From Acidobacteriaceae bacterium (GTDB lineage: Bacteria; Acidobacteriota; Terriglobia; Terriglobales; Acidobacteriaceae), in NCBI GenBank assembly GCA_025352065.1, contig JANXUC010000046.1:1-51505 (forward strand): DNA of 51,505 bases, written 5' to 3'. Both the position numbers and the translations under genes were made by a program. Each line of letters opens with the position of its first letter. Position 1 is the first letter of the stretch. Positions 11,361-21,353 of this stretch are shown piece after piece. Under the pieces are notes generated by a model. That model was given only the letters and a program-made list of their open reading frames with translations, was not told where the DNA came from and did no database searches.

Positions 11361-13379
11361 ATGCAGACCTCGCGATCTTTTCTTCGCACTGCGGCGCTAC
11401 TCGCGATCTTCGCAATTGCAGCTTTCTTTAGCAGAGCCCCAGCGGTCGCTCAAAACACAAGCGCGAATGACATCGACCGTTCCATCAAGCCCGGTGACGA
11501 CTTCTACCAATACGCCAATGGCAGCTGGCTGAAAATCGCAGCCACACCTGCCAACCCTCCGGGTTACGACACGCGCACCATGCTGCGAGAAAGGACAGCT
11601 CAGCGTGTGCGCGATCTCATTCAAGAAGCGTTCGCGTCCCACTCCGCCAAGGGTAGCGACTCGCAAAAAGTGAGAGACTACTTCGGCAGTTTCATGGATA
11701 TCGACAGCATCGAGGCCAAGAAGCTGACACCACTCGCCGACGAAACCGCCAAAATTTCAGCCATCACAAACAAAACTTCGCTGTCGGCCTATCTCGGCAC
11801 CACGTTAAATGGCGAAGTTGAAGGGCTCATTGCCAACGCCGACCATATTTTCGGCCTGTGGATCAACCAGGGCTTCGACGACGCCGACCACAATGTCGTC
11901 CACCTGTGGCAGGGCGGTCTCGGAATGCTCCAGCGTGACAATTACCTTGACCCCTCATCCCAAATTGCGGAGCTGCGCGCCCAATACCAAGCACACATCG
12001 CTGCGGTCTTGAAAATAGCGGGCGTGGCAGAATCCGAGACCAAGGCGGGGCGCGTTCTTTCGCTGGAAACCCAGATTGCAAAAGCCTTCGCGCCCGACTC
12101 CGACGCTGCCGACGTCTTCAAACAGAACAATCCGTGGAAACGCGCCGACTTCAGCGCCAAGGCCCCGGGCATGGACTGGGACGCCTATTTCGAAGCAGCC
12201 GGCCTCGCACAACAACCCGATTTCATTGTTTGGCAGCCATCAGCCGTAACCGGCGTCTCCGCACTAGTAGCCAGTGAGAGTGTCGAAAACATCGACGCAT
12301 GGAAGGACTACCTCCGGTTTCACCTGGTCGAGCATTACGCCAGTGTCCTCCCCAAGGCCGCACGCCAGCAGACACCAGACCGCAACAAGTTAGCCGTCGA
12401 CGCCACCAACGGCGCTTTAGGCCAGGCGGTCGGCCAGATCTACACGCAACGCTATTTCCCGCCTGCAGCGAAGGCCAAAGCGCAAGCCATGGTCGCCGAT
12501 TTAATCTCCGCATATCGCTCTCGCATTCCAAATCTTGCGTGGATGTCGTCTCAGACCAAGCAAAAAGCCTTGGCTAAACTGGCCGCGCTGGAAGTGATCG
12601 TCGGCTATCCCGACACATGGATCGACTATTCGGCGCTCGACGTGGTGCGCGGAGACGCCTTCGGAAATATGTGCCGCGCGGAAGCCTTTCTTCGTGAACG
12701 CAACCTGGCCAAGCTCCAGCAACCGGTCGATCCCATCGAGTGGCCCATCAACCCGCAAATCCCGGGCGCGTTCATCATGTTCAGCCCCAATGCAGAGTTT
12801 TTCTCCGCCGCCATCCTGCAGCCGCCGTATTTCGACAGCGAGGGCGACACAGCTTCCAACTACGGCTCGGCGGGTGCTGGCATGGCCCACGAAATCAGCC
12901 ACAGTTTCGACCAACTAGGCAATATTTACGACGCCAAAGGCCGTCTCGGCGACTGGTGGACCGCAGAGGACCGAACCGCATACCACGCGGCCGCAGAGAA
13001 GCTAGCGTCGCAATTCGACGCTTACTGCCCGCTCGCCGATCTTTGTGTCAAAGGCAAGCAGGTCTTAGGGGAGAATATCGCTGACCTAGCAGGCTTGCTG
13101 GTCGCGCACGACGCCTACATCCTGTCGCTGCAAGGCAAGCCCGATGCCGTGATCGGCGGACTGAGTGGCGAACAACGTTTCTTCCTGGCCTTCGCCCAGC
13201 GCTGGCGGAAAATCCAGGACGAAGCCGCTCTGCACAAGCAGATCGCAACCGACACCCATTCGCCAGGAAAATATCGCAGCGATACAGTACGCAATGTCGA
13301 CGCTTGGTACAAAGCCTACGACATCGCACCCAGCGACAAGCTCTATATGAAGCCCGAAGATCGGGTTAGGATCTGGTGA
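11361..13379 (+). CDS. M13-family (neprilysin/PepO-like) metalloendopeptidase
   Basis: A 672 aa exported zinc endopeptidase that cuts oligopeptides in the periplasm or outside. The signal peptide is residues 1-31 (AALLAIFAIAAFFSRAPAVAQ region). The DDFYQYANGSW motif near the mature N-terminus is typical of M13. The zinc site is HEISH at 510-514 and the third ligand lies in ENIADLAG (E571). The substrate-binding segment before it reads NAEFFSAAILQPP. GGAGG four bases before ATG sets the start. Downstream lies a large nested palindrome separating it from a convergent amidohydrolase. Confidence 0.94.
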   Translation: MQTSRSFLRTAALLAIFAIAAFFSRAPAVAQNTSANDIDRSIKPGDDFYQYANGSWLKIAATPANPPGYDTRTMLRERTAQRVRDLIQEAFASHSAKGSDSQKVRDYFGSFMDIDSIEAKKLTPLADETAKISAITNKTSLSAYLGTTLNGEVEGLIANADHIFGLWINQGFDDADHNVVHLWQGGLGMLQRDNYLDPSSQIAELRAQYQAHIAAVLKIAGVAESETKAGRVLSLETQIAKAFAPDSDAADVFKQNNPWKRADFSAKAPGMDWDAYFEAAGLAQQPDFIVWQPSAVTGVSALVASESVENIDAWKDYLRFHLVEHYASVLPKAARQQTPDRNKLAVDATNGALGQAVGQIYTQRYFPPAAKAKAQAMVADLISAYRSRIPNLAWMSSQTKQKALAKLAALEVIVGYPDTWIDYSALDVVRGDAFGNMCRAEAFLRERNLAKLQQPVDPIEWPINPQIPGAFIMFSPNAEFFSAAILQPPYFDSEGDTASNYGSAGAGMAHEISHSFDQLGNIYDAKGRLGDWWTAEDRTAYHAAAEKLASQFDAYCPLADLCVKGKQVLGENIADLAGLLVAHDAYILSLQGKPDAVIGGLSGEQRFFLAFAQRWRKIQDEAALHKQIATDTHSPGKYRSDTVRNVDAWYKAYDIAPSDKLYMKPEDRVRIW

Positions 13380-13413: not shown

Positions 13414-13657
13414 CTTAGGCCGCGTTTCATAAATATTAGCCTGCACCCTGTCATTCTGAGAGCCTTTGACTTTATTGTCTGTTCCGAAAACCAACGCTGA
13501 AAACAAACAACTTACGCGCCTAAAAACCGCGTAATTTGAATAAAGTCACAGCCTCGGAGCGCAGCGAAGAATCCCTGTAAACATCCACAGTCGCCAAGGC
13601 AGCAGGGATTTTTCGCTGCGCTCAGAATGACAAATTCGTATTTATGAAACAGCCTTT
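13414..13657. repeat. Three-level nested palindrome between convergent genes
   Basis: Outer arms: TTAGGCCGCGTTTCATAAATA (13415-13435) against TATTTATGAAACAGCCT (13639-13655 region), inverted. Middle arms: a family A repeat, TGTCATTCTGAG at about 13449-13460 and CTCAGAATGACA at 13621-13632, with GCGCAGCGAAGAATCC pairing with GGATTTTTCGCTGCGC. Inside the left family A arm sits a further element of about 96 bases with its own inverted ends. It lies between the stops of the M13 peptidase and the opposing amidohydrolase. Confidence 0.75.
13461..13556. mobile_element. MITE-like insertion inside a family A repeat arm
   Basis: About 96 bases interrupt the family A arm between TTCTGAG and GAGCGCAGCG. 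Its ends AGCCTTTGACTTTATT and AATAAAGTCACAGCCT match as inverted repeats at 14 of 16 positions. A GAG triplet stands on both sides, possibly a 3-base target duplication. The centre holds TTACGCG-CCTAAAAAC-CGCGTAA, a perfect 7-base stem. There is no coding capacity, so movement would need a transposase in trans. Confidence 0.6.
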
Positions 13658-13712
13658 AGTTTCTTCTATTGGAACTCGGCCGCCCGATAGCTATCGCGGC
13701 CCCCCATCACCG

Positions 13713-15347
13713 TCAGCAACACTTTGTCTTCAGAATGTTTTCCGGCGGACCGCTCAGAATGTCTTCCGACAGCACCACAAAATCCGCCAACTTGCCTGCC
13801 GTCAGGGTTCCCTTTACGTTCTCGTCGAAACTGGCATAGGCGCCATCGCGCGTAAAATGCCGCAGTGCCGCTTCCACGGAAATTCGATTCTCCGGATACC
13901 AGCCCCCTGCGGGAGTCCCCTCCGGCGTCTTGCGTGCGACCGCACAGTAAATCCCGCGCAGCGCCTCATGCGAAAACACTGGATGATCGCTGCCAAACGC
14001 CTGCATCGCTCCCGCATCGTCAATCAGTTTGAACGCATTGGCGTGAGAAGCCCGCGCCGGACCTAGCAGTACGGCGTAGTTATTCAACGTTGTGTCATCG
14101 GGATTCGCAAACAGCGCCTGCGTCGAAGCAATCACACCGAGTTGTTTGAAGCGCGGCAGGTCGTCCAATCGAGGCACTTCCATATGCTCCACGCGATGCC
14201 GTCGTCCTGAACTGCCGTTCGTTTTCGCGGCATACTCGAACGAATCCAGTGCCATGTGGATAGCCTTATCGCCAATGGCATGTAGCATGATTTGCAAACC
14301 CGCCTTGTCATACGCGGCCGCAGCCTGATTCAGCTCCTCCTGCGTCCACATGGGAATTCCGGTCCCGCCACCAACATACGGCTCGAACATTGCCGCCGTC
14401 CGCGCATCCACGGTCCCGTCCAGCATGCCCTTGGCGCAACCAAACTTCAGCACCGGGCCCTTAAATTGATCGCGCTGCGATTGAAACAGTTCTAAATCCG
14501 CAGCGTTGGGATTCTTCCTGAACGGAACCGACATGTAGAAGCGAACTTTCATGCCGCCTTCCGCCAACACGCGCAAAAACGCGGATTCGTCGTCTCCCCA
14601 ACCCTGCGAGACTTCCTGCAACGACGTCAGCCCATACGAAGCCGCCTCGTCCAGCGTCTTCTTTAGCGCGAGGTAGCGATCCTCCGCCGAGGGTTCCGGA
14701 ATATGCTCTGCCACCAACCCCACCGCAGATTCCTTCAACTCCCCCGTAAGTTCGCCGTGCGCGTCGCGCTCAATGCGTCCGTTCACCGGATCCGGCGTAT
14801 CCCGCGTGACTCCCGCCAGCGCCAGTGCCTTCGAGTTCGCCACACCCATGTGCCCATCGCGTTCCCAAATAAAAACAGGACGGTCCGGCATCACCGCATC
14901 CAGATATTTCTTCTCCGGCAACTTTCCCGGAAACGCCGAATATCCCCAGCCTCGCCCCGTAATCCATGCCTTCGCCGGATGAGCCTGGGCATAGCGAACC
15001 AACCGCTGCTGCAAATCCGCAACATCGGCAGAGTCCACCAGATCCGCATGATCGCTGGAAGAAAAATGCCAGTGCGCATCATTGAAGCCCGGCACCAGCA
15101 AGCGCCCGTGCAAATCCACGATCGCCGTATCAGCAGCAGCCAGCTTACGAATTTCGGCATTCGATCCGACCGCTAAAAGCTTGTCCCCCCGCACAGCCAG
15201 CGCTTCCGCCAGCGGATGGGCCTCATCGGCCGTCCAGATATTGCCGTTCACAAAAATCCGGTCGGTATGGTCCGCGGCGAAGGCAGGACTAGGCGCGACC
15301 TGTGTCGCCCAAAATAGTGCTGACAGCAGCAGCAAAGGCTTACGCAT
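13713..15347 (-). CDS. Exported YtcJ-like amidohydrolase (amidohydrolase_3)
   Basis: A 544 aa metal-dependent hydrolase of the TIM-barrel amidohydrolase superfamily, subfamily with YtcJ and NfdA. The signal peptide spans residues 1-25 (LLLLSALFWATQVAPSPAFA). The N-terminal beta-sandwich has DRIFVNGNIWT, then LLVPGFNDAHWHF gives the HxH metal pair. Later histidines occur in MLHAIGDKA and HRVEHMEV, and ASFDENVKGTLTAGKLADFVV closes the barrel. ATG 15347 is preceded by GGAG at proper spacing; the longer frame to 15410 reads through a repeat. The substrate is probably an N-acyl, urea-like or ester compound, not resolvable here. Confidence 0.9.
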   Translation of the reverse strand: MRKPLLLLSALFWATQVAPSPAFAADHTDRIFVNGNIWTADEAHPLAEALAVRGDKLLAVGSNAEIRKLAAADTAIVDLHGRLLVPGFNDAHWHFSSSDHADLVDSADVADLQQRLVRYAQAHPAKAWITGRGWGYSAFPGKLPEKKYLDAVMPDRPVFIWERDGHMGVANSKALALAGVTRDTPDPVNGRIERDAHGELTGELKESAVGLVAEHIPEPSAEDRYLALKKTLDEAASYGLTSLQEVSQGWGDDESAFLRVLAEGGMKVRFYMSVPFRKNPNAADLELFQSQRDQFKGPVLKFGCAKGMLDGTVDARTAAMFEPYVGGGTGIPMWTQEELNQAAAAYDKAGLQIMLHAIGDKAIHMALDSFEYAAKTNGSSGRRHRVEHMEVPRLDDLPRFKQLGVIASTQALFANPDDTTLNNYAVLLGPARASHANAFKLIDDAGAMQAFGSDHPVFSHEALRGIYCAVARKTPEGTPAGGWYPENRISVEAALRHFTRDGAYASFDENVKGTLTAGKLADFVVLSEDILSGPPENILKTKCC

Positions 15348-15395: not shown

Positions 15396-15480
15396 TGTCA
15401 TTCCGAGCACAGCGAGGAATCCCTTTCAAATACCAACAGCCTGTGGCAATTAAGGACTCTTCGCTCCGCGCAGAATGACA
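15396..15480. repeat. Family A palindromic repeat
   Basis: TGTCATTCCGAGCACAGCGA at the left and TCGCTCCGCGCAGAATGACA at the right form the inverted arms, with AGGAATCCC opposite AGGACTC and a loop containing CCAACAGCCTGTGG. It lies between the DinB-like gene and the amidohydrolase (both minus strand). Confidence 0.85.
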
Positions 15481-21267: not shown

Positions 21268-21353
21268 TGTCATTCTGAGCGCAGCGAAGAATCCCTTTTG
21301 AAGACCAACAGTCTTGATGGCGACAGGGATTCTTCGCTACGCTCAGAATGACA
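21268..21353. repeat. Family A palindromic repeat, best-preserved copy
   Basis: TGTCATTCTGAGCGCAGCGA and TCGCTACGCTCAGAATGACA are near-perfect inverted arms, extended by AGAATCCCTTTTG against AGGGATTCT. The loop contains CCAACAGTCTTGATGGCGAC. It lies between the convergent gcvPB and DUF2911 genes and could serve as a terminator for both. Confidence 0.9.

Follow-up and report, generated by a model that had tools for sequence, protein, structure and literature searches.

An IS1182-family insertion sequence and its 94-base MITE very probably insert at one fixed point of a REP-like repeat in an Acidobacteriaceae genome

REP-specific ISs, palindrome-targeting IS1182 elements (PMC5678879, PMC4923244) and an IS1182-type MITE (PMC11578231) are all known already, to go by the parts of these reports available to us. 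The ISs reported to target REP sequences are ISPpu9, ISPpu10, ISPa11, ISRm22, ISRm19, ISPsy8, IS1397, ISKpn1 and IS621, which resemble the elements described here in using one exact point of the REP. They belong, however, to the IS3, IS110, IS4, IS256 and IS5 families and not to IS1182, and no MITE that shares their target is described in the available portion of that account (PMC1525189). IS1272 and TnSha1, of the IS1182 family, match our elements in transposase family, 16-base ends and insertion into palindromes (PMC5678879, PMC4923244, as far as their available text goes). In contrast, IS1272 as described in the accessible part of PMC5678879 replaces varied hairpins without a duplication, whereas in 13 of 14 copies we find a 5-base duplication at a fixed REP site. 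MITEPye1 of Paracoccus yeei likewise has IS1182-like ends and short direct repeats, although its repeats are 4 bases long, it lies between genes in 1 to 3 copies per chromosome, and no REP target is mentioned in the available text (PMC11578231). Small repeats nested in one another are also known, from the pneumococcal BOX, RUP and SPRITE elements; unlike these, to judge from the portion of PMC10969869 at hand, the landing site of the inner element here is fixed to the base. We found no description of a REP-specific IS1182 element in the open-access literature searched, which is weak evidence of absence.

The locus that we describe lies in the window, by which we mean the whole stretch of 51,505 nucleotides analyzed, from the genome of an Acidobacteriaceae bacterium (G000; 183 contigs, 98.5% complete). 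We are confident, though short of certain, that an IS1182-family IS and its 94-base MITE insert in this genome at one fixed REP point with a 5-base duplication, and that the MITE was the last to arrive in the window. The features are as follows.

13415-13418, no strand: TTAG, left flank of the outer element and possible target duplication (from sequence; 4/4 match with the right flank)
13419-13435, plus strand: left end of the outer element, GCCGCGTTTCATAAATA (sequence, inverted pair)
13449-13460, plus strand: first 12 bases of REP unit 1, TGTCATTCTGAG, of which the last 5 are the left duplication copy, CTGAG, at 13456-13460 (sequence, end listing)
13461-13554, plus strand: 94-base MITE with the ends of the IS1182-family IS, differing at 4/94 bases from nine identical copies (genome search, copy comparison)
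13555-13559, plus strand: right duplication copy, CGGAG, with one mismatch to CTGAG (end listing)
13557-13577, plus strand: remainder of REP unit 1, GAGCGCAGCGAAGAATCCCTG (sequence, inverted pair, REP pattern)
13603-13632, minus strand: REP unit 2, the uninterrupted inverted partner of unit 1 (inverted pair, REP pattern)
13639-13655, minus strand: right end of the outer element, TATTTATGAAACAGCCT (sequence, inverted pair, end pattern)
13656-13659, no strand: TTAG, right flank of the outer element (sequence, flank comparison)
21268-21353, no strand: intact REP doublet without a MITE (inverted pair, REP pattern)

The initial annotation had claimed palindromes nested within palindromes, and an inverted-pair search of the window found all of them, as three nested inverted-repeat layers within 13419-13655. 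An outer pair of 12 nt (100%, 13424-13435/13639-13650) encloses the family A arms, which pair over 24 nt (92%, 13554-13577/13603-13626) and over a second stretch of 15 nt (93%, 13449-13463/13618-13632); the ends of the inner element pair over 17 nt (88%, 13460-13476/13539-13555). The fold of the 237-nt stretch is one nested hairpin at -52.9 kcal/mol versus a shuffle mean of -24.8 (z -7.9), with 0 of 200 shuffles as good. Two convergent genes flank it: the M13 peptidase gene stops at 13379 and the reading frame of the amidohydrolase gene at 13713. At the 3' end of the amidohydrolase gene, a 15-base stretch occurs twice (TCAGAATGTTTTCCG/TCAGAATGTCTTCCG), 24 bases apart, within 13730-13768 of the window. 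Other REP doublets in the window, at 1575-1657 and 15396-15480, are more or less decayed, while that at 21268-21353 is intact.

The inner element had been described as about 96 bases long, with 16-base inverted ends, a 7-base stem and a GAG triplet on both sides. Its 7-bp stem is indeed present in the predicted fold (z -3.6, 0 of 200 shuffles as good), but the element spans 94 bases (13461-13554), with 14 of 16 positions shared between its two ends. The GAG on both sides is real, yet it forms the end of a 5-base duplication, CTGAG/CGGAG, and not a 3-base one. A search for further copies, which had been proposed as a means of refuting the idea of a mobile inner element, yielded 13 other matches in the genome, so the idea survives. 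With the window's own copy counted, G000 thus contains 14 matches, of which nine are identical over 94/94 bases, two are at 96-99% identity and two are cut by contig ends. A second MITE subfamily is represented in G000 by one match at 86% identity. At E 0.01 there was no match in 60 other genomes, 36 of them from the same family. Given nine identical copies in G000 and none in those 60 genomes, the 94-base element appears to be recently multiplied and narrowly distributed. It has the properties of a MITE: it is short (94 nt), lacks a transposase, carries the ends of a resident IS and is present in several dispersed copies.

That resident IS was recognized from the pattern of the ends, AGSCTGTGACTTTATT, which occurs at 40 sites in G000 at ≤2 mismatches compared with 4 in a reversed control. 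One pair of sites, on a different contig from the window, bounds an IS of 1535 bases (G000:C109:46897-48431), and several other sites lie at contig ends. The two ends of this IS are 16 bases long with one mismatch between them. Its 462-aa product scores 310.6 bits against the NCBIfam IS1182 model NF033551, above the cut-off of 270, and contains the transposase domains PF05598 (DUF772) and PF01609 (DDE_Tnp_1). ISPse1, a benchmark for IS1182, has ends near 16 bp and a size near 1.6 kb (PMC3281130), and the IS is like it in its 16-base ends and 1535 bp. By these features we classify the IS as a member of the IS1182 family. It is the only complete assembled copy, and 12 bases separate it from a contig end. 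G000 has five left IS ends and five right ones; together with the contig ends they suggest five copies, of which the assembly has fragmented four. A search of plasmid records gave no match at 1e-60. Because the likeness between the MITE and the IS is confined mostly to the 16-17 end bases, the MITE is not a simple deletion of the 1535-base IS. Nevertheless, the two have ends and target in common, which suggests that the MITE is probably moved in trans by the IS1182-family transposase.

The target is the REP-like unit that makes up the family A arms. G000 holds 111 such units at ≤3 mismatches, as singlets and inverted doublets, compared with 0 in the reversed control; together they occupy about 2.8 kb of 4.25 Mb. 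At ≤2 mismatches, the unit is present in 28 of 61 genomes, its own included, and in 0 of 14 from the sister family f2. Each unit is a hairpin with an ATTCY/RGAAT stem, tandem G.A mismatches, a GC/GC step and a GNA loop. Columns were counted in 100 of the 111 units, and since the search pattern fixes most columns, only positions 8 and 20 are unbiased: these read C-G in 60 units, T-A in 32, C-A in 6 and T-G in 2. The tandem G.A mismatches are found in 96 and 94 of the 100 units, the first stem pair is A-T in 95 and the second is T-A in 99. Variants in relatives (GTCATCC..GGGATC and GTCATGC..GCATC) are again complementary. The CGTC-tagged REP superfamily is similar in having a TGTC variant of the tag, an A-T stem opening, singlets and inverted doublets and no linked transposase, in the available part of its description (PMC3733652), and family A shares the tag and opening, as TGTCAT..AT. 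However, the superfamily is described there with a loop of 4-5 bases and a CCA tail, whereas family A has a 3-base GNA loop (seen in the fold of two unit types), tandem G.A mismatches and a CCC/CCT tail, mostly CCC; its host lineage, Acidobacteriota, is outside the phyla given for the CGTC repeats in that part (PMC3733652). A full-text literature search with four REP letter strings gave no bacterial-repeat title among the matches listed.

Examination of the IS and MITE ends revealed that 38 of 39 adjoin the same REP site at ≤2 mismatches, 20 of them next to TGTCATTCYGAG and 18 next to the complementary half of the unit. The 39 ends are the 40 pattern sites, minus two 2-mismatch sites (C80:93872 and C93:47511) that were set aside unread, the reversed control having had 4 such 2-mismatch sites, plus one end (C51:1959) that the pattern had missed because of a one-base insertion. 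Next to the remaining end, an IS end on contig C29, the REP is reduced to CGCTCAG (9/19 mismatches). In the 14 copies with two ends, the 5-base duplication, reading CYGAG, is exact in nine, has one mismatch in four, including the window's copy, and is absent from one (L014). All 20 of the AGC-starting ends in G000 point toward the TGTCATTC side, and all 19 AGG/AGT ends point the opposite way. No clear partner unit is found downstream (≤7 mismatches) in 7 of the 11 two-ended copies of the MITE, and thus a REP doublet would not be required as a target. The exceptional copy, L014 (G000:C109:14928-15021), has the outer 12 bases of the REP unit on both sides, AGC at both ends and no direct duplication. 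This arrangement resembles a REP doublet in which the element has taken the place of the tip, which is a hint at most, since a misassembled join or recombination between similar ends would also fit.

A relative order of insertion, with the inner element last, had also been proposed for the window, and our data support it. With 13 other copies in the genome and 38 of 39 ends at one REP site, while 111 intact REP units exist, the inner element would have arrived later than the REP. The accompanying idea of one element family inserting into another holds for the insertion itself, but the AGGCTGT-like sequence on which kinship of the outer and inner ends was based is weak evidence. That likeness is limited to the window's two right-hand ends, because genome-wide the outer end is most often AGCGTGTTTCATAAATG and the inner ends read AG[C/G/T][C/T]TGTGACTTTATT. 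As both end sequence and flanks differ, the outer and inner ends appear to belong to different end families.

Outer ends occur at 27 sites in G000 at ≤3 mismatches, compared with 10 in the control; within these sites we found REP in 15, another hairpin repeat (GGGCTAAAGCCC type) in 7 and nothing evident in 5. The motif TTTCATAAAT is upstream of 16 of 104 REP units (the distinct units for which sufficient flanking sequence was available) and the reversed motif of 0 of 104. Because the outer ends recur with REP, other hairpins or nothing inside, we consider the outer pair to be the end of a separate family of hairpin-carrying elements, as judged by its sequence, whose enzyme was not found among the genomes searched. 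Across 61 genomes at ≤2 mismatches, with 30 sites taken as loci, no pair at IS distance had matching flanks; one pair 4 kb apart (G028:C27) was judged by its flanks alone. The flanks are often TA or YTAG, with TA in register on both sides in 8 of 19 candidate pairs, counted by eye. A clean duplication (TTAG/TTAG, 4/4) is found only in the window among these 19, so that target duplication by the outer elements is weakly indicated. Ends like the outer pair also enclose unrelated hairpins elsewhere (L188, L191 and L194 in G007, L179 in G009 and L185 in G044), for example GGAACCCGGCTTGTTGCCGGGTTCC. The outer end sequence and flanks presumably point to an IS5- or IS630-like enzyme.

A joint reading, in which a single hairpin serves three mobility systems, is conceivable, though we regard it as rather unlikely. 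A DDE transposase cutting next to TA would carry hairpin cassettes with AGCGTGTTTCATAAATR ends, which occur in several genera and enclose unrelated hairpins, and this would be one way in which REP doublets lacking their own transposase spread. The IS1182 transposase would then use the REP hairpin as a landing pad, giving a 5-base duplication for an element whose two ends differ in kind and replacement of the hairpin tip for one whose ends are alike, as in L014.

Use of the REP site extends to a relative of the IS. A search of 299 genomes of the class with the IS protein recovered, in addition to the protein itself, two relatives at 70% identity. One (G327), from another genus of the same family and with one stop codon, lies between GTCATC-CTGAG and CTGAG-CGGAGCG in a genome with 373 such REP units (control, 1). 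Its ends, CGG and AGC, are in reversed orientation relative to those in G000, and the duplication can also be read as 8 bases; consequently, the end polarity seen in G000 would not be general. The other (G176) has one recognizable end, beside GCTTCGCTTAG, which resembles a REP half, and its other end was not found. Four distant relatives in the class (41-42%) have other targets, which by eye are palindromes for L125 and L126 and not for L127 and L128. L125 (G197) interrupts CCCTCGCGCTTGCGCGAGGG at its center and is flanked left and right by GCTT, which looks like a duplication of the loop. When genome contigs were scanned with the IS protein as the sole query, six relatives at 38-47% identity came up, in planctomycete and chlamydia-like records, which are too distant for a test of the target.

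Since the MITE has the same place and orientation in all 11 two-ended copies of the window's subfamily, one might suppose that a single insertion occurred, after which the MITE and the REP were copied around the genome together. We consider this very unlikely. The nine letter-identical MITEs lie in nine different REP sequences, which differ on average at 5.9 of the 38 flanking bases (range 2-9), and in variant units the stem arms on either side of the insert are still complementary: ATTCT..AGAAT, ATTCC..GGAAT (L008) and ATGCT..AGCAT (L009). Nine different REP sequences with complementary halves argue for independent landings in intact units. In addition, the IS and the second MITE subfamily (86%), the latter reversed in L015, are at the same point, as is the related IS in another genus (G327). 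REP differences beside identical MITEs largely refute composite amplification; comparison of the copies shows common ends, site and duplications and, as far as such a comparison goes, independent insertions.

Alternatively, the elements could replace the tip of any hairpin without duplication, with the REP being hit as the commonest hairpin in the genome. This is how IS1272, of the same family, behaves in staphylococci according to the available parts of PMC5678879 and PMC4923244; L014 would fit such an event, and two of the four distant IS1182 relatives (L125 and L126) are in palindromes by eye. Yet a direct duplication with a complete REP unit around it is found in 13 of 14 copies, leaving L014 as the only copy with neither duplication nor hairpin tip, and it may be a recombinant or an assembly error. 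Furthermore, the site is a fixed point within the unit and not the hairpin tip, no doublet is needed, and no insertion into an unrelated hairpin was seen among the copies in this genome. We therefore judge stem-loop replacement highly improbable. Movement of the whole nest by a Y1 tyrosine transposase of a REP/RAYT (REPIN) system is hardly credible: REPINs are mobile in the form of REP doublets (PMC3116915, in its available part) and the genome has 7 Y1_Tnp matches, but in 0 of 7 cases did the fetched flanks contain a REP unit or either an outer or an inner end, so that a RAYT link was rejected, and the MITE ends and duplications are of DDE type.

Thus, we favor insertion by the IS1182 transposase, which, acting in trans, would join the 16-base ends to TGTCATTCYGAG^CGNAGCGARGAATC of the REP-like palindromic unit. 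Most likely, it would excise or copy elements bounded by its ends and join them at the REP with a 5-base stagger. In the window, the target would have been the left unit of a REP doublet already inside the outer element at 13419-13655, the doublet with its outer ends having come first and the MITE last. As the insertion position is fixed, we infer that this particular repeat is recognized by its sequence and/or its hairpin. Both hairpin and duplex recognition are plausible, because IS1182 elements have a taste for hairpins in the available accounts (PMC5678879, PMC4923244) and the unit is itself a hairpin.

The window locus taken singly has a modest meaning, as an ordinary nested insertion between convergent genes. 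At the level of the family, our results would add IS1182, by sequence, to the families with a REP-specific member. They also provide a natural series of about 20 insertions into one 25-base site by one IS and two MITE subfamilies, and such a series could separate recognition of sequence from recognition of the hairpin. How REPs can spread when they have no dedicated transposase is a question posed in the available part of PMC3733652, and the outer elements are relevant to it. Finally, because the repeat is neutral and often located between genes, the REP target may serve as a safe harbor that lets the MITE multiply.
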